A stretch of 10,115 nt of DNA, from assembly GCF_946885855.1 (NCBI RefSeq), contig NZ_CAMPHH010000114.1, forward strand, positions 1 to 10,115. Reading direction: 5' to 3'. The translations under genes and the position numbers were made by a program. Positions 1 to 7,942 of this stretch are shown here, in pieces (position 1 is the stretch's first letter; each line of letters starts with the position of its first letter). The notes under the pieces are model-generated. The model had not been told where the DNA came from. It made no database searches and was given only the letters and a program-made list of their open reading frames with translations. The stretch is from an uncultured Actinotalea sp. GTDB taxonomy: Bacteria; Actinomycetota; Actinomycetes; Actinomycetales; Cellulomonadaceae.

Positions 1-840
1 CAGCCCGGAGCCCGGGGTGCCCGCAGGTTCGGGTCCCGAGGACGGGTCGTCGTCGAGCCCGGCCGCCTCGCGCGAGCCCCACGCCTCGGCCCGCTGGACG
101 TCGTCGACAGCCGGCAGCGAGCCGACGTCGCCGTCGAACGCGTGCTCGCCCTGCACCACGGTCGTCCGCAGCCGCCCGGTGCCGGGTGCGCCGGGCACCG
201 TCGGGGCGTCCACCTCGACCTCGACCACGTCGCCCGGCCCGATGACGCTCGAGCCGGCCGGTGTGCCCGTGAGGACGACGTCGCCGGGTTCGAGGGTGAG
301 GTGCTGGGACAGGTCCGCGACCAGCTGGGCGAGCGGGAAGATCATCCCCGCGGTCGTGTCCTCCTGGCGCAGCGCGCCGTTGACCCACGTGCGCACGCGC
401 AGCCCGGCGGGGTCGAGGGTGCGCGCGTCGAGCAGCGCCGGACCGAGCGGGGTGAAACCGTCGCCGCCCTTGGAGCGGACGTTCGAGCCCTTGTCGTTGG
501 CGCGCAGGTCGTAGAGGCCGAGGTCGTTCGCCGCGGTGACCCACGCGACGTGGTCCCACGCCTGCGCGACCGGTACCCAGCGCGCCGTCGTCCCGATGAC
601 GAGCGCGACCTCGCCCTCGAACGCCAGCAGCTCGGTCCCGGCGGGCCGCTCGACCGTCCCGCCGCTCGCCGCGACGGAGCTCGAGGGCTTGAGGAAGTAC
701 GAGGGGTGGGCGGGCCGTCGGCCGCGCTGGTCCGCGCGCGAGGCGTAGGACAGGTGGATCGCGATGATCTTCCCCGGCCGCTGGGGGAGGGCGGCAAAGC
801 GGGCGTCCGCGGCGCCGTCGTCGGCGGTGTGCTGGCTCAT
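1..840 (-). CDS. Fumarylacetoacetate hydrolase (FAH) family protein, 3' end outside window
   Basis: A FAH-fold enzyme; members hydrolyse, decarboxylate or isomerise ring-cleavage products of aromatic catabolism in the cytosol, using a divalent metal. 280 residues are visible from an ATG with a GAGGGAG ribosome site just upstream; no stop is reached at the left edge. Family marks seen: GKIIAIHLSY at 23-32, the metal-binding ExE in FEGEVAL (E75, E77), the third acidic ligand D106 in AANDLG, the RSKGGDGFTPLGP segment at 122-134, and the LEPGDVVLTGTPAG loop near 183-196. The catalytic core should end near residue 230. About 50 further residues follow, Gly/Pro/Asp/Ser rich towards the edge, so the protein has a C-terminal extension or a second domain. 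It is separated by 233 bp from the upstream minus-strand decarboxylase-like gene and has its own TATACGATCC box, so it is probably its own transcript. The substrate cannot be told; HpaG-like isomerase/decarboxylase or acylpyruvate hydrolase are both possible. Confidence 0.9.
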   Translation of the reverse strand, partial: MSQHTADDGAADARFAALPQRPGKIIAIHLSYASRADQRGRRPAHPSYFLKPSSSVAASGGTVERPAGTELLAFEGEVALVIGTTARWVPVAQAWDHVAWVTAANDLGLYDLRANDKGSNVRSKGGDGFTPLGPALLDARTLDPAGLRVRTWVNGALRQEDTTAGMIFPLAQLVADLSQHLTLEPGDVVLTGTPAGSSVIGPGDVVEVEVDAPTVPGAPGTGRLRTTVVQGEHAFDGDVGSLPAVDDVQRAEAWGSREAAGLDDDPSSGPEPAGTPGSGL

Positions 841-865
841 GAGCTCCCTCGCTCGTGCGTCGACA

Positions 866-878
866 GGATCGTATACGA
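866..878 (-). promoter_or_regulatory. Putative promoter -10 / operator box before FAH gene
   Basis: Contains TCGTATACGA (869-878), a perfect 10-bp palindrome. Read on the minus strand it gives TATACGATCC, 26 nt before the FAH start. The same ten bases TATACGATCC recur at 2791-2800 before the monooxygenase. It may be an extended -10 hexamer (TACGAT) or an operator; palindromes centred on GTATAC are typical of FadR/FCD-type GntR regulators. No convincing -35 was found at 16-18 nt. No regulator gene is in view. Confidence 0.45.
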
Positions 879-950
879 CTGGTCCGGCCGGGTGCTGCCC
901 CCGTGCGCACGTCGGTCCGGTCGCCGTCTCCGCCGGGCCCGGCGTCCGCC

Positions 951-1062
951 AGGTCGGCACGCCTGCGCCAGGTCGGCTCGTCCTGGTGCCGACCTCGCGT
1001 GGACCTGCCGACCTCGCGTGGACGAGCCGACCCGCGTGGACGTGCCGATCTCGCGCGGGCCT
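951..1062. repeat. 19-nt imperfect tandem repeats with interleaved inverted repeats
   Basis: Four tandem copies of a unit close to GCCGACCTCGCGTGGACCT begin at 988, 1007, 1026 (18 nt) and 1044; the first two differ only in their last two bases. Inverted partners lie to the left: AGGTCGGCAC (951-960) pairs exactly with 986-995, and GGTCGGCTCGTCC (971-983) pairs exactly over 13 bp with 1020-1032. The two stems interleave, so they are alternatives or form a pseudoknot. The array begins 12 bp past the stop of the minus-strand decarboxylase-like gene, so it lies in that gene's 3' untranslated region; a factor-dependent terminator or a protein-binding array is plausible. There is no U-tract. Confidence 0.75.
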
Positions 1063-1073
1063 CGGACGCACGC

Positions 1074-2726
1074 TCAGCTGCTCTGGCCCGCGATCTCCTG
1101 CCAGTACGGCGCGACGACGGCGCCCGAGACGCGCAGGTCCAGCAGCAGGAACGGCCGATCGTCGACCGGGCGGGCCGTCCACGCGGCGAGCACGTCGAGG
1201 TCCTCGACGCGGCGCACCACCTCACCCTGCGCGCCCAGCGCCCGGGCCACGCCGGCGAAGTCGACGTCGGGGATGAGCATCGGCTCGCGCGCGAGCCCCT
1301 TGCGCCCGTACAGGTGCACCTCGGCGCTGTAGGCGCCGTCGTTCCACACCACCGCGATCCCGCGGCCGCCCGCGACCCGCACCGCGGACTCCAGGTCCGC
1401 CAGCGCCATGAGCCCGCCGCCGTCCCCGGTCGTGAGCACGACGGTCGACTCCGGCCGGGCGAGCGCCGCCCCGACGACGCTCGGCAGCCCGAGCCCGATC
1501 GACTGGAACGCCGTACCCACCATGATCATGCGGTCCGGGGAGGCCACCGGCCAGTACATGTTCGACCAGCCCAGGAAGTGTCCGCCGTCGGAGACGACGA
1601 CCCGGTCCGCGGGAAGCAGGTCCGCCAGCCGGGCCGCCGCCGAGCGCGGGTCGAGCCGGCCGTCGGGTGCCACGCCGTCGCCCGCCTCGCGGCGCAGGGC
1701 CGCCGCGACGTCCACCTGCTCCCGCCAGCCGCTGGGCGTGGCCCCGAGGGCGGCGAGCTCGGCCACCACCGCCTCGGCCACGACGGCGACGTCGCCCCGC
1801 ACGTAGCCGCCGACGTGCGGGTGGGTCGCGGCGGGCGCGACGTCCACCTGGAACACGCGCGTGCCGGGCGCGAAGAGCTCGCCGAACCGCATCGTGAACG
1901 GGTTGAGGGACGCGCCGAGGACGACGGCGACGTCCGCCTCCCGCGCGAGCGCCATGGCGCCGTCGGCCCCGAACCCGCCCGCGACCCCCAGGTCGAACTC
2001 CGCGCGCGGGAAGACGCCGCGGCCGAGCGCCGTCGTCGTCGTCAGGGCACCGGTGGCGTCGGCGAGCGCGCCGAGGACCGTGCCCGCGCCGGCGACCCAC
2101 GCGCCCCGGCCGGCCAGGAGCAGCGGCCGCCGCGCGGAGGCGAGGGCCGCCGCGATCTCCCGCACGACGCCGTCGGCGAACGGGCCGCGCGGGGCGAGCG
2201 GCTCGGGCAGGTGCGGCGCGGGCGTCCCGGGCACGGGGCCGGCGTCGAGGGTGGCGACGTCGTAGGGCAGGGCCAGCACGGTGGGCACGCGGTAGGTGAG
2301 CGCGTGCTCGACGGCGATGACCGTGGTCGCGGCGGCGTCGGCGCGACCGGCGGTGTAGGTCCGGGCGCCGACAGCGGAGGCCATGGCGATCTGGTCGACG
2401 TCCCACGGCCGCGGGCCCGACGTCGGCTCGTCCCCGACGACGAGGATGAGCGGCACGTGCGCCTGCACCGCCTCCGCGAGCGCGGTGAGCGTGTTCGTGA
2501 ACCCGGCCCCGTACGTCGTCGTCGCGGCGGCGAGCCCGCCGCAGGCGCGGTGGAAGGTGTCGGCGGCGACGACCGCGCCCGCCTCGTGGCGCACCGCCGT
2601 GAACGTGGCGCCGGTCTGCCGCTCGAGGGCGTCGAGGAAGTACGCGTTGCCGTTGCCCATGACGCCGAAGACGTGCTGGACGTGCTCGGCGAGCGTGACG
2701 GCGACGTGCGCGGAGACGGTCGGCAT
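1074..2726 (-). CDS. Thiamine-diphosphate-dependent enzyme (acetolactate synthase/benzoylformate decarboxylase-like)
   Basis: 550 residues, the usual length of the family. Three domains are evident: an N-terminal pyrimidine-binding domain with the catalytic glutamate E48 in AVRHEAGA, a central domain (about 185-330), and a C-terminal diphosphate-binding domain with the motif GDG (434-436) followed 26 residues later by N462 in VVWNDGAYSAE, which holds the Mg2+ and cofactor. Such enzymes decarboxylate 2-oxo acids and may ligate the product to an acceptor. The segment LALPYDV (151-157) is also typical. The ATG start is preceded by GGGAGG at about 10 nt. The gene is divergent from the flavin monooxygenase, with 111 bp between starts, and lies upstream of the FAH gene on the same strand. 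It could be a decarboxylase of an aromatic 2-oxo acid, as benzoylformate decarboxylase is, but the sequence does not settle the substrate. The long open frame continuing upstream past 2726 is antisense to the monooxygenase and is not coding. Confidence 0.88.
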   Translation of the reverse strand: MPTVSAHVAVTLAEHVQHVFGVMGNGNAYFLDALERQTGATFTAVRHEAGAVVAADTFHRACGGLAAATTTYGAGFTNTLTALAEAVQAHVPLILVVGDEPTSGPRPWDVDQIAMASAVGARTYTAGRADAAATTVIAVEHALTYRVPTVLALPYDVATLDAGPVPGTPAPHLPEPLAPRGPFADGVVREIAAALASARRPLLLAGRGAWVAGAGTVLGALADATGALTTTTALGRGVFPRAEFDLGVAGGFGADGAMALAREADVAVVLGASLNPFTMRFGELFAPGTRVFQVDVAPAATHPHVGGYVRGDVAVVAEAVVAELAALGATPSGWREQVDVAAALRREAGDGVAPDGRLDPRSAAARLADLLPADRVVVSDGGHFLGWSNMYWPVASPDRMIMVGTAFQSIGLGLPSVVGAALARPESTVVLTTGDGGGLMALADLESAVRVAGGRGIAVVWNDGAYSAEVHLYGRKGLAREPMLIPDVDFAGVARALGAQGEVVRRVEDLDVLAAWTARPVDDRPFLLLDLRVSGAVVAPYWQEIAGQSS

Positions 2727-2768
2727 GGGTGCGGAGCCTCCCGGGGCTGGCCGGCGCAGGGCGCCTCG

Positions 2769-2800
2769 TTGCCCCTGCGGAGCGCCAACATATACGATCC
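2769..2800 (+). promoter_or_regulatory. Divergent promoter region of monooxygenase and TPP-enzyme genes
   Basis: TTGCCC (2769-2774), 18 nt, then TACGAT (2793-2798) gives a fair sigma-70-type promoter reading toward the monooxygenase, 39 nt before its ATG. The box TATACGATCC (2791-2800) repeats the one before the FAH gene, here with one weaker palindrome arm (TCGTATATGT on the other strand against TCGTATACGA). The same bases read on the minus strand offer TATGTT as a -10 toward the TPP-enzyme gene, so back-to-back overlapping promoters are possible. No mapped start supports either. Confidence 0.45.
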
Positions 2801-2837
2801 GTCGACCTCGACAGCGGCGTCCGGGGGAGGGGGTCCG

Positions 2838-4727
2838 ATGCAGTTCCACCACCACGGGTACGTCTCCGGCGACCCCCGCGTGCAGCCCGCGGCCGGCATC
2901 GGCCTGGACCGCCCGGCCGAGCTGCCGGACGAGGTGGACGTGCTGGTCGTCGGTACCGGACCCGCCGGGATGATCGCCGCCGCGCAGCTGTCCCAGTTCC
3001 CCGACGTGCACACGCGCATCGTCGACCGGCGCGACGGGCGGCTCGTCGTCGGGCAGGCGGACGGCATCCAGGCGCGCAGCGTCGAGACGTTCCAGGCGTT
3101 CGGGTTCGCCGGGCGGATCGCCGAGGAGGCGTACCGCATCACCGAGATGTGCTTCTGGCACCCGGCCCCAGCCGATCCGGCCCGCATCGTGCGCGGCGAG
3201 CGGCCCCCGGACGACCCGGCCGGGATCAGCGAGTTCCCGCACCTCATCGTCAACCAGGCGCGCGTGCTCGACCACTTCGCCGAGTTCATGGCGCACTCGC
3301 CCAGCCGGATGGTCCCGGACTACGGCTACGAGTTCCGCGGCCTCGAGCGGACGGACGACGGCGACCACCCGGTCACCGTCACCCTCGTCCGCACGGCGGG
3401 GGAGCGGGCCGGCGAGGAGAAGGTCGTGCGCGCCAAGTACGTCCTCGGGGCCGACGGCGCCCGCAGCGCCGTGCGCTCGGCGATCGGCTGCACGATGCAG
3501 GGCGACTCGGCGTTCCACGCCTGGGGCGTCATGGACGTCCTCGCGGTCACCGACTTCCCCGACATCCGGCTCAAGTGCGCGATCTCTGCCGAGGCGGGCA
3601 ACATCCTGCTCATCCCGCGCGAGGGCGGGCACCTGTTCCGCATGTACGTCGACCTCGGGGAGACCGACCCGGACGCGCACCACGCGGTGCGCAGCACGAC
3701 GATCGAGCAGATCATCGCCCGGGCGCAGACGATCCTGCGGCCGTACACCCTGGACGTGCGGCACGTCGCCTGGCACAGCGTCTACGAGGTCGGCCACCGC
3801 CTCACCGACCGCTTCGACGACGTCCTGCCCGAGGAGGCCGGCACCCGCACCCCGCGCGTCTTCATCGCCGGGGACGCCTGCCACACGCACAGCGCCAAGG
3901 CCGGGCAGGGGATGAACGTGTCCATGCAGGACGGGTTCAACCTGGCCTGGAAGCTCGGCTCGGTGCTGTCCGGCCGGTCGCCCGAGAGCCTGCTGGCGAC
4001 CTACTCCGCGGAGCGGCAGGTCGTCGCGCGCGACCTCATCGACTTCGACAAGCAGTGGTCGGCGCTCATGGCGAAGAAGCCCGGCGAGGTCGACCCGGCC
4101 GACCTCGCCGCGTTCTACGTGCGGACCACGGAGTTCCTCTTCGGGTTCCGGACGCAGTACGCGCCCTCGATGATCGTCGCGGAGCCCGTGCACCAGCACC
4201 TGGCCACCGGGTTCCCGGTGGGCAAGCGGTTCCGGTCCGCGCCGGTGGTCCGCGTGGCCGACGCCAACCCCCTGCACCTGGGCCACCAGCACCGCGCCGA
4301 CGGCCGGTGGCGCGTCTACGCCTTCGCCGACGACGGCGCCCCGGCACCCGGCTCCGCGCTGGCGCGGTGGGCGGCGTGGCTGGCCGACGCCCCGGACTCG
4401 CCGGTCGACGCCCACACGCCCGCCGGCGCGGAGCGCGACAGCGTGCTCGACGTCAAGGCGGTGCTCCAGCAGCCCCACGCCGACGTCGACCTGGGGCAGG
4501 TCCCCGAGGTCTTCCTGCCGCGGACAGGCCCGTTCGCCCTGGTCGACTACGAGAAGGTCTTCGCCGCCGACCCGGCCGAGGACGTCTTCGAGGCGCGCGG
4601 CGTGGACCGGCGCGGGTGCGTCGTCGTCGTCCGGCCGGACCAGTACGTCGCCGGGGTCTTCCCGCTCGACGCGACGGCGGAGCTCGCGGCGTTCTTCCGG
4701 CAGCACCTGCTGGTGCGGACCGCCTGA
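2838..4727 (+). CDS. FAD-dependent aromatic monooxygenase, 3-hydroxybenzoate 4-hydroxylase/phenol 2-monooxygenase type
   Basis: 629 residues, matching the roughly 640 of MobA-type 3-hydroxybenzoate 4-hydroxylases. These class A flavoproteins insert one oxygen atom into a phenolic ring using NAD(P)H and O2 in the cytosol. Seen: the Rossmann dinucleotide motif VVGTGPAG (37-44), VGQADGIQARSVE at 71-83 typical of this branch, the DG motif LGADGARSAVR (203-213), the second FAD motif IAGDACHTHSAKAGQGMN (343-360) with G345-D346, and a C-terminal thioredoxin-like dimerisation domain from about 445. The ATG has GGAGG seven bases upstream (2826-2830). The flavoenzyme gene that follows, 83 bp on, is probably co-transcribed. 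With FAH-family and TPP enzymes beside it, a role in catabolism of a hydroxylated aromatic compound is likely; the true substrate is open. Confidence 0.9.
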   Translation: MQFHHHGYVSGDPRVQPAAGIGLDRPAELPDEVDVLVVGTGPAGMIAAAQLSQFPDVHTRIVDRRDGRLVVGQADGIQARSVETFQAFGFAGRIAEEAYRITEMCFWHPAPADPARIVRGERPPDDPAGISEFPHLIVNQARVLDHFAEFMAHSPSRMVPDYGYEFRGLERTDDGDHPVTVTLVRTAGERAGEEKVVRAKYVLGADGARSAVRSAIGCTMQGDSAFHAWGVMDVLAVTDFPDIRLKCAISAEAGNILLIPREGGHLFRMYVDLGETDPDAHHAVRSTTIEQIIARAQTILRPYTLDVRHVAWHSVYEVGHRLTDRFDDVLPEEAGTRTPRVFIAGDACHTHSAKAGQGMNVSMQDGFNLAWKLGSVLSGRSPESLLATYSAERQVVARDLIDFDKQWSALMAKKPGEVDPADLAAFYVRTTEFLFGFRTQYAPSMIVAEPVHQHLATGFPVGKRFRSAPVVRVADANPLHLGHQHRADGRWRVYAFADDGAPAPGSALARWAAWLADAPDSPVDAHTPAGAERDSVLDVKAVLQQPHADVDLGQVPEVFLPRTGPFALVDYEKVFAADPAEDVFEARGVDRRGCVVVVRPDQYVAGVFPLDATAELAAFFRQHLLVRTA

Positions 4728-4810
4728 CCTCCGGGCTGTCGCGGGGCTGGCCCGGCGGGGACCGCCCACGTCCGCGGGCCGACCGGCGGCGTCCGTGGTG
4801 GGGTGGTGAC

Positions 4811-5908
4811 ATGCCTCGTGTCGCCGTCGTCGGGGCCGGCATCGTCGGCCTCTCCACCGCCTTCGCCCTCCAGCGCCGCGGCGCGGACGTCACGCTGCTG
4901 GAGCCCGGCCCGCCCGGTGGCGGTCAGTCCGCGGGGCGGTCCCGCATCTTCCGGCACGCCCACGCCGACCCGCGCCTCATCGACCAGGTGGTCCGCAGCC
5001 GCGCCCTGTGGCGCGAGTGGGAGCGCGAGCTGGGCGTCGAGCTCGTGGCCGGGGAGGGTGCGCTGGCCATCGGGGACGCCGTCCCCGACAAGGCCGCGGC
5101 GCTCGCCGCCGCCGACGTGCCGGTGCGCCTTCTCGCCCCCGACGAGGCCCGTGAGCACCTGCCCGTGCTCGCGCCGTTCGACGGGCCCGCCATGCTCGAC
5201 GTCCACGGCGGGGCGATCCGGACGCGCGCCGTCGTCGCCGCGCTGGCGGACCGGCTCGCCGGCTCCCTGGTGGCGGACCACGTCCTGGCCGTGCGCCGCC
5301 GGGACGACGGCGCCGTCGAGGTGCGGACCGGCACGGGCGTGAGCGTCCACGACCACGTCGTCCTGTGCGCCGGGCGCGGGACTGCGGGCCTCGCCGCGGC
5401 GCTCGGGACGGAGATCCCGGTCGAGCAGGCCGCGCACGTCCGCGTCACGTTCGAGGTGGCGGGACCGGGCCCGCGCCCGATGCCGACGTTCCAGGACGGC
5501 AGCGGGGCGTTCGGCGAGACCGGCGTCTACGCCTCGCCGTACCCCGACCCGCGCTACTACGCGGTGGGCCTCAGCGAGGTCACCCCCGCGCTCGCCGCGG
5601 GCGCGGTCGCCGACCCGGACGAGCTGGCCGCCCTCGCCGACCGTGCGGTCGCCTACGTCCGGCGCGCCCTGCCGGGCCTGCGCGCGGATCCCGTCGAGCA
5701 CGTGCACTGCTGGGTCACGCGGCTGCCGTGGGGCGAGGACGGTGTCGGGATCTGGTCCGACGGCGGGGTGACGGCCGTGGCGGGCCACAACCTCTTCAAG
5801 CAGGCGCCGGTGCTCGGTGAGGCCCTCGCGACCACGGCGGTCACCGGCGAGGTCCCCGCGCCCTGGCACGCGCAGGCGCGCCTCGGCGCGGATCAGCCCT
5901 CGTCGTAG
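4811..5908 (+). CDS. FAD-dependent oxidoreductase, monomeric sarcosine oxidase-like (DAO family)
   Basis: 365 residues, close to the 385-390 of monomeric sarcosine oxidases and N-methyltryptophan oxidases, which oxidise secondary amines or amino acids. The N-terminal FAD motif VVGAGIVGLSTAFALQRRG (6-24) follows the start at once. RSRIFRHAH (43-51) matches the sarcosine oxidase arginine segment near the flavin. C300 in VHCWVT lies where the covalent-FAD cysteine of sarcosine oxidase (Cys315) is, and GHNLFKQAPVLGEAL (325-339) matches the C-terminal FAD-binding stretch. By my hand alignment the lysine that activates oxygen (Lys265 in sarcosine oxidase) corresponds to A251 in RYYAVGLSE, so it may use an acceptor other than O2. 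The ribosome site (GGGGTGGTGAC) is weak. Its end overlaps the convergent DUF4240 gene by 16 bp. Likely in one transcript with the monooxygenase; substrate unknown. Confidence 0.85.
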   Translation: MPRVAVVGAGIVGLSTAFALQRRGADVTLLEPGPPGGGQSAGRSRIFRHAHADPRLIDQVVRSRALWREWERELGVELVAGEGALAIGDAVPDKAAALAAADVPVRLLAPDEAREHLPVLAPFDGPAMLDVHGGAIRTRAVVAALADRLAGSLVADHVLAVRRRDDGAVEVRTGTGVSVHDHVVLCAGRGTAGLAAALGTEIPVEQAAHVRVTFEVAGPGPRPMPTFQDGSGAFGETGVYASPYPDPRYYAVGLSEVTPALAAGAVADPDELAALADRAVAYVRRALPGLRADPVEHVHCWVTRLPWGEDGVGIWSDGGVTAVAGHNLFKQAPVLGEALATTAVTGEVPAPWHAQARLGADQPSS

Positions 5909-6516: not shown

Positions 6517-6548
6517 CCCCCCAGGACGCGGTCACCCGTCCTGGGGGG
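6517..6548 (-). terminator. Strong hairpin at end of the DGPF-sigma unit
   Basis: CCCCCCAGGACG (6517-6528) and CGTCCTGGGGGG (6537-6548) form a perfect 12-bp stem around an 8-nt loop. On the minus strand the stop codon of the sigma gene (6534-6532) lies in the loop, so the stem includes its last codons. No T-run follows, which is common for terminators in high-GC actinobacteria. Confidence 0.7.
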
Positions 6549-7451
6549 TCTCCGCACTCGTCCGGGCCGCGCCCCGTGCGCCCGCGGTGTTGAGCCGCGC
6601 CGCCTGCCGGGTCAGGTGGTCCCGCTCGGGCGCGCTCGCGGCCTTCCGCGCCGCCACGGCGTAGAGCCCCGCGGCGGTCGCCGTGTCCCCGGCGCGCGCG
6701 TGCAGGTGGGCCGCCACGGCGTCGTACCGGGGGAGTGCCGGGTCCAGTCCTGCCAGCGCCGCCAGCCCGGCGCGCGCCCCGTCCGCCTCCCCGACGGCGA
6801 CCGCGCGGTTGAGCCGGGCGACGGGGCTCCCGGTGATCCGGACGAGCTCGTCGTACCACTCGACGACCTGCACCCAGTCGGTCTCCGCCGCCGTCGGGGC
6901 ATCGGCGTGCAGCGCCGCGATCGCCGCCTGCGCCTGGTACTCGCCGAGGCGGTCGCGCGCGAGCGCTGCCTGCAGCACGTCGACCCCCTCGCGGATGAGC
7001 GCCGTGTCCCACCGGGCACGGTCCTGCTCCGCCAGCGGGACGAGGGCGCCCTCGGCGGTGGTCCGGGCCGCGCGCCGCGCGTGGTGCAGCAGCACGAGCG
7101 CGAGCAGGTCCTGCACCTCCGGGTGGTCGACCACCGCGGCGAGCTGCCGCGTGAGGCGGATGGCCTCGGCGTGTCGTCGGCCGACGGCGCCGGCCCCGGG
7201 TGGGGCTCGGCCGCGACGGCGTCCTCCCGACGACGGCGCGCCGCCTCCGAGCGCGTGGCGTCGAGGAACCTGCGCCACGCGACCGCCACGAGCCACGCGA
7301 GGGGGTCCCGCGGCGTCGTCGTCAGCCAGGTGCGCAGCGCCTCGACCAGGGCGTCCTGCACGGCGTCCTCGGCCGCCGCGAAGTCGGCCCCGCGGCGGAC
7401 GAGGGCACCGAGCGCCCGTGGTGCGAGGCTGCGGACCGACGCCTCGTCCAC
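6532..7451 (-). pseudogene. ECF42-type RNA polymerase sigma factor, internal deletion and frameshift (sigma-4 lost)
   Basis: The start is a GTG (7449-7451) with GAGG six bases upstream, 8 bp after the DGPF gene's stop. The first 94 residues are a normal ECF42 N-terminus: VDEASVRSLAPRALGALVRR, then FAAAEDAVQDALVEALRTW and LAWLVAVAWRRFLDATRSEA of sigma domain 2, then PAPSADDT. At about 7167-7174 the family-like reading jumps frame to AEAIRLTRQL, which in intact relatives follows sigma domain 4 and begins the C-terminal TPR-like extension; 212 residues of that extension follow to a TGA at 6532-6534. The two parts make 306 residues against about 400 in the family, so roughly 100 residues (sigma domain 4 and linker) are missing and the frame is changed. 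Continued reading of the first frame gives an unrelated tail to 6612. Without domain 4, which reads the -35 element, it should not direct transcription. An assembly error is the main alternative. Confidence 0.85.
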
Positions 7452-7459
7452 GGCGGACC

Positions 7460-7867
7460 TCACTCCGTGATGGTCGGCGGGGCCGTGAGGAACGGCCGGA
7501 CCTCGAGCCACTCGTGGATCGGCCTCCCACCGGCACCCGGGGCCGCCGACAGCTCGCCGGCGAGCTCGACCGCGCGCTCCTGGCTCTCCACGTCGATGAC
7601 CATCCAGCCGGCGATGAGGTCCTTGGTCTCGGCGAACGGGCCGTCGGTCACCGGTGGACGGCCCTCGCCGTCGTACCGGACCCAGAGGCCGTCGGGGGCG
7701 AGCGCCTGCCCGTCGACGTTCTCCCCGGTGCCCTGGAGGCGCTCAGCGAAGTCGTTCATGTACCGGATGTGGGCGGCGACCTCGTCCGGCGTCCACCGGT
7801 CCATCGGGACGTCGTTCACCGCCGCCGGGTTGCCGCGGTAGTGCTTGAGGAGCAGGTACTTGGCCAT
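7460..7867 (-). CDS. DGPF/YCII-like domain protein, partner of ECF42 sigma factor
   Basis: 135 residues, the usual length for YCII-related DGPF proteins. It starts MAKYLLLKHYRG from an ATG with GGGAGGGAG upstream. The name-giving motif lies in PPVTDGPFAETKDLIAGWMV (71-90; DGPF at 75-78), followed by the IDVESQERAVELA strand-helix and the closing HEWLEVRPF. The fold is a small dimeric ferredoxin-like alpha/beta domain; its reaction, if any, is not established. Genes of this family sit beside ECF42 sigma factors and are reported as the targets of that group. Here the sigma gene follows 8 bp downstream but is broken. The DGPF reading frame itself is intact. Confidence 0.9.
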   Translation of the reverse strand: MAKYLLLKHYRGNPAAVNDVPMDRWTPDEVAAHIRYMNDFAERLQGTGENVDGQALAPDGLWVRYDGEGRPPVTDGPFAETKDLIAGWMVIDVESQERAVELAGELSAAPGAGGRPIHEWLEVRPFLTAPPTITE

Positions 7868-7915: not shown

Positions 7916-7942
7916 GACGGAACAGGCCGCCGGATCTCGACA
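7916..7942 (-). promoter_or_regulatory. Putative ECF42-dependent promoter of the DGPF gene
   Basis: On the minus strand TGTCGA (7942-7937), then exactly 17 nt, then CGTC (7919-7916), 48 nt before the DGPF start codon. From the literature as I recall it, ECF42 targets carry TGTCGA at -35 and CGA/TC at -10; the match and spacing are exact. The TGTCGA lies inside the palindrome that closes the gene upstream, so it could also be chance. Confidence 0.6.

Follow-up and report, generated by a model that had tools for sequence, protein, structure and literature searches.

ECF42 sigma factors are recognized by sigma-2 and sigma-4 domains and a C-terminal extension of about 200 residues (DUF6596/TPR), all in one continuous reading frame, and by a YCII-related neighbor gene. 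The ECF42-type promoter motif of S. venezuelae is TGTCGA. In the accessible part of PMC6180224, two target promoters of S. meliloti RpoE10 fit TGTCGG-N17-CGTC. The TPR extension is essential for ECF42 activity, and its sigma-4-proximal part must contact sigma-4, according to the portions of two papers available to us (PMC8999054, PMC9023288). What the YCII partner of these sigma factors does is not settled in the literature, as far as the accessible portions of it go.

The stretch of DNA analyzed here (10,115 nucleotides, hereafter the window) contains a YCII-ECF42 pair in which the ECF42 gene lies in two pieces, on the minus strand from 7451 to 6532. The features of this region are:

7916..7942, minus strand: promoter-like motif TGTCGA-N17-CGTC, 48 bases from the YCII ATG (pattern match)
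7460..7867, minus strand: YCII/YciI-family gene, intact, 135 aa, upstream of ECF42 (Pfam YCII; near-identical ENA protein; full length in 48 of 48 loci, themselves selected with a YCII query)
7170..7451, minus strand: sigma-2 half, ECF42 residues 1-94, GTG start at 7451 (Pfam Sigma70_r2; 88% identity to the intact relative P0004)
7168..7172, minus strand: deletion junction, with the CGC at 7171-7169 assignable to either side (comparison with 12 intact loci)
6532..7170, minus strand: C-terminal half, ECF42 residue 183 to the end, DUF6596/TPR region, in another frame (Pfam DUF6596; 88% identity to P0004)
6612..7451, minus strand: present N-terminal frame, 94 sigma residues followed by about 185 out-of-frame, Arg-rich residues, with a stop at 6612 (ORF list, translation)

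By tblastn against P0004 (382 aa), frame -1 matches residues 1-94 (7451-7170) and frame -3 matches residues 183-382 (7170-6571), each with 88% identity. No internal stop was seen in the translation of either half, and the frame of the C-terminal half is open upstream to at least 7536. The N-terminal piece contains Sigma70_r2 (36.6 bits vs. a cut-off of 24), and the C-terminal piece matches DUF6596 profile positions 31-101 of 102 (71.5 bits), the first 30 positions being absent. The extension is thus recognizable through DUF6596, in a frame that differs from that of the sigma-2 half, and the gene has no single continuous reading frame (-1 and -3). For sigma-4, no Pfam match was listed for either piece at E <= 0.001; the missing residues, 95-182, comprise sigma-4 and the sigma-4-proximal extension. 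Pfam also places the YCII gene directly upstream. These data agree with a first-pass annotation of the window, which had identified an ECF42 gene with its halves in different frames and had attributed the loss of sigma-4 to an out-of-frame internal deletion.

The alignment to orthologous loci of relatives that this annotation had called for upholds the deletion against 12 intact loci. The missing DNA amounts to 265 bp relative to 11 of the 12, and to 280 bp relative to the remaining one, which has a five-residue insertion; 265 is not divisible by three. The two sides overlap by 3 nt (CGC) at the join, which falls within the interval proposed earlier (about 7167-7174). The loss had been overestimated, at about 100 residues or 300-350 bp vs. 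the 88 residues and 265 bp measured against relatives. A 17-base string spanning the junction had no match in viral contigs or in the 151 loci compared. In other assemblies, none of the 120 matches listed of 2,503 shares the whole fused N-terminal frame, the coverage of the query being at most 37% among them.

In this actinobacterium, a relative of Cellulomonas and Actinotalea, we consider it highly probable that ECF42, the second member of a YCII-ECF42 pair, is a pseudogene and that a genuine short-homology deletion produced it. Recombination at the short homology would have removed the segment, and the product of the first frame, keeping sigma-2 followed by junk, would no longer recognize the -35 element. 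By analogy with the accessible accounts of the TPR extension, loss of function would be the likeliest consequence of removing sigma-4 together with the proximal extension. The operon would thereby be deprived of its own activator, with YCII and the ECF42-type promoter left in place. The ECF42 gene itself seems dispensable in this group, since other deletions or frameshifts account for its loss in some relatives.

These relatives came from a search with YCII as bait (E <= 1e-45) in 221 genomes of the family of Puerhibacterium puerhi (G001, L006), which yielded 48 loci in 47 genomes. The family is Promicromonosporaceae in NCBI; the group drawn also includes Cellulomonas and Actinotalea, and we take it to be the GTDB Cellulomonadaceae. 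ECF42 is intact in 42 loci and broken in five, and one locus was set apart (G193, with Ns after residue 330). All 48 have a full-length YCII frame (135-139 aa), a result partly forced by the bait threshold. Three of the broken genes have deletions and two have frameshifts, in each case elsewhere than in the window:

G007: several deletions in ECF42; YCII identical to P0265, named Cellulomonas bogoriensis
G157: ECF42 residues ~23-345 gone, frame lost
G218 (L150): by eye, an in-frame loss of ECF42 residues ~67-333 that joins sigma-2 to the last part
G010: ECF42 frameshift near 257; YCII matches Actinotalea ferrariae CF5-4
G015, second copy: ECF42 frameshift near 275; the other G015 copy is intact

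Sequencing error could account for the two frameshifts. The three deletion loci keep the first ~21 and the last 20-30 ECF42 residues and have no whole domain in common. In L150, the fused frame is continuous over about 115 residues (~690-1060 of the reverse complement) and lies beside a full-length YCII gene. The reverse case was seen in L151 (G209), found through ECF42 only, where a YCII frame of 81 aa lies beside a full-length ECF42 gene. In G019, a syntenic relative whose flanks share 86-88% identity with the window, only an ECF42 remnant aligned and YCII gave no alignment; positions 743-866 (L055/L102) hold the scar of a lost YCII-ECF42 locus, between a conserved DUF4240 gene and a hypothetical gene.

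A second family was sampled through 159 genomes drawn from that of Nocardioides rubriscoriae (G003, L005), giving 48 loci. Here ECF42 is intact in 47 and cut by a contig end in one, so that none of the 47 determinable loci is broken. The two families do not differ clearly (5/47 vs. 0/47 broken; Fisher p = 0.056 for all lesions, 0.24 for deletions). Two loci flagged by a script, L166 and L193, proved intact on recount. Among 27 named loci drawn with the C-terminal half, a search biased towards intact genes, 26 were full length. The exception, Nocardioides psychrotolerans L027 (~2514-2811), joins its first 11 YCII codons to ECF42 residue 272 with a change of frame, the pattern that a single deletion crossing both YCII and ECF42 would leave. 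Among the papers listed by a literature search of limited coverage, none dealt with broken ECF42 genes.

A different kind of change was observed in 12 database ECF42 proteins among the listed matches to the fused N-terminal frame (P0122-P0132 and P0136), one named Klenkia terrae and the other 11 from lgn, ena or jgi sources. In these, sigma-4 is kept and the C-terminal part slips into a wrong, Arg-rich frame further downstream. Their tails represent either sequencing errors or further pseudogenes.

To estimate residual constraint, we used 166 of 193 reference ECF42 proteins of 370-400 aa; the other 27 lacked the C-terminal motif or had a known frameshifted tail, and the set used still contained at least one bad row, with 47 departures. 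Of the 112 C-half columns conserved at >=95%, the window differs at 3, and 13 of the 166 references show as many departures or more; of the 43 such N-half columns it differs at 1, and 57 of the 166 references show at least one departure there. Relative-rate counts (window : sister; two sisters, six outgroups) extended over 12:4 to 9:11 for the C-half and, for the N-half, over 7:1 and 6:0 to 4:5, while YCII showed no excess (4:6, 4:6, 2:6). The counts for the ECF42 halves are raised at most weakly. Decay beyond the deletion appears slight at most, and the deletion is therefore probably recent. This accords with the earlier impression of a recent event without other damage: the halves have neither stops nor frameshifts, and their conserved residues are mostly kept.

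An assembly artefact, in which the assembler or a chimeric read dropped the 265 bp, is unlikely. The region is indeed GC-rich; however, the two sides, judged from relatives, share only 3 nt at the join, which would be too short for repeat collapse, and internal deletions occur in three relatives, the contigs concerned being 3.3 and 3.9 Mb long in two of these. Further evidence comes from P0002, a near-identical ENA protein of 200 aa encoded on a 4,414-bp contig of another assembly, with 4 differences from the window including the start residue. It begins with that residue 12 codons past the junction, as expected if its 5' part were also out of frame, although a contig edge could mimic this. 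P0002 thus fits the presence of the same lesion in another strain, with the caveat that a contig edge could look alike. Very probably the deletion is both real and ordinary, being one among several losses that the ECF42 gene has undergone in relatives.

Counting against a pseudogene, neither half is much further decayed, the relative-rate counts are at most weakly raised, and the second family has no broken ECF42 among its 47 determinable loci. The C-terminal DUF6596/TPR half could have been retained as a free extension protein able to bind the partner usual for ECF42, a possibility also raised in the first-pass annotation; its frame is open with few changes at conserved columns, and the 200-aa ORF of P0002 had been called on its own. 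We judge this quite improbable. By eye, no evident ribosome-binding site precedes the candidate GTG, DUF6596 positions 1-30 are absent, G157 and G218 are without most of the C-terminal half, and N. psychrotolerans retains only residues 272-364. Related broken loci thus retain different pieces, and the lack of a whole ECF42 domain common to all of them argues against a preserved free extension. The sigma-2 half might instead be a truncated regulator competing for core RNA polymerase, consistent with its single change in 43 conserved columns and with the in-frame deletion of G218, through which one open frame runs from sigma-2 into the last C-terminal residues. This seems very improbable, given that the window's frame runs on into about 185 out-of-frame residues and that sigma-2 itself is cut in G157 and G007. 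The most likely explanation is ordinary, repeated loss of the ECF42 gene beside an intact neighbor.

The promoter-like motif occurs once in the window, vs. a mean of 0.07 expected (200 shuffles, 13 with a match). In the related family, 47 of 48 loci carry the exact motif no more than 150 bases upstream of YCII; in the second family 36 of 48 do, or 42 of 48 when the spacing and the -10 are relaxed. It also precedes YCII in the five broken loci. In a genome-wide scan of 10 chosen genomes, the pattern TGTCGAG-N16-CGTC hit the operon promoter in nine (G019 had no match at all) and gave 30 other matches; a reversed control pattern gave 12. Besides the broken gene, DUF6596 matches at E <= 1e-5 were present twice in G157 and once in G218, and there was none in the G007 assembly. 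Another ECF42-like protein could therefore serve the promoter in some genomes, perhaps not in G007, to judge from these matches.

ENA contigs no longer than 1,133 bp encode a YCII protein that differs from that of the window by one residue, and close kin have therefore been sampled elsewhere. We raise tentatively, as a doubtful but possible reading, that YCII is independent of its sigma factor in part of the related family, the sigma gene being repeatedly deleted while YCII and an ECF42-type promoter are kept. If so, YCII would act outside the ECF42 circuit and would be expressed by other means than that circuit. Genomes without the sigma gene but with YCII and its promoter would be natural knock-outs for asking what YCII does alone. 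Apart from the YCII question, the case is one of ordinary gene loss.

The remainder of the window includes, within 1-5908, genes for an FAA hydrolase, a TPP-dependent enzyme, a phenol-hydroxylase-type FAD monooxygenase and a DAO-family oxidase, which may together form a catabolic cluster. Matches to the Rhodococcus plasmid NZ_CP108042.1, which fall in this same part, cover 26% of the window.

Globally, the locus shares sigma-2 and the C-terminal DUF6596/TPR extension with the S. venezuelae Sven_0747 type, S. meliloti RpoE10 and P. putida ECF-10, as well as the upstream YCII-related gene and the TGTCG..CGTC promoter, as these systems are described in the parts of the literature available. Unlike them, it has lost sigma-4 and the proximal extension, and its frame is broken. 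In combining a full-length YCII gene and the promoter motif with a broken ECF42 gene, it resembles G007, G157, G218, G010 and the second copy of G015, but its lesion lies at a place of its own.
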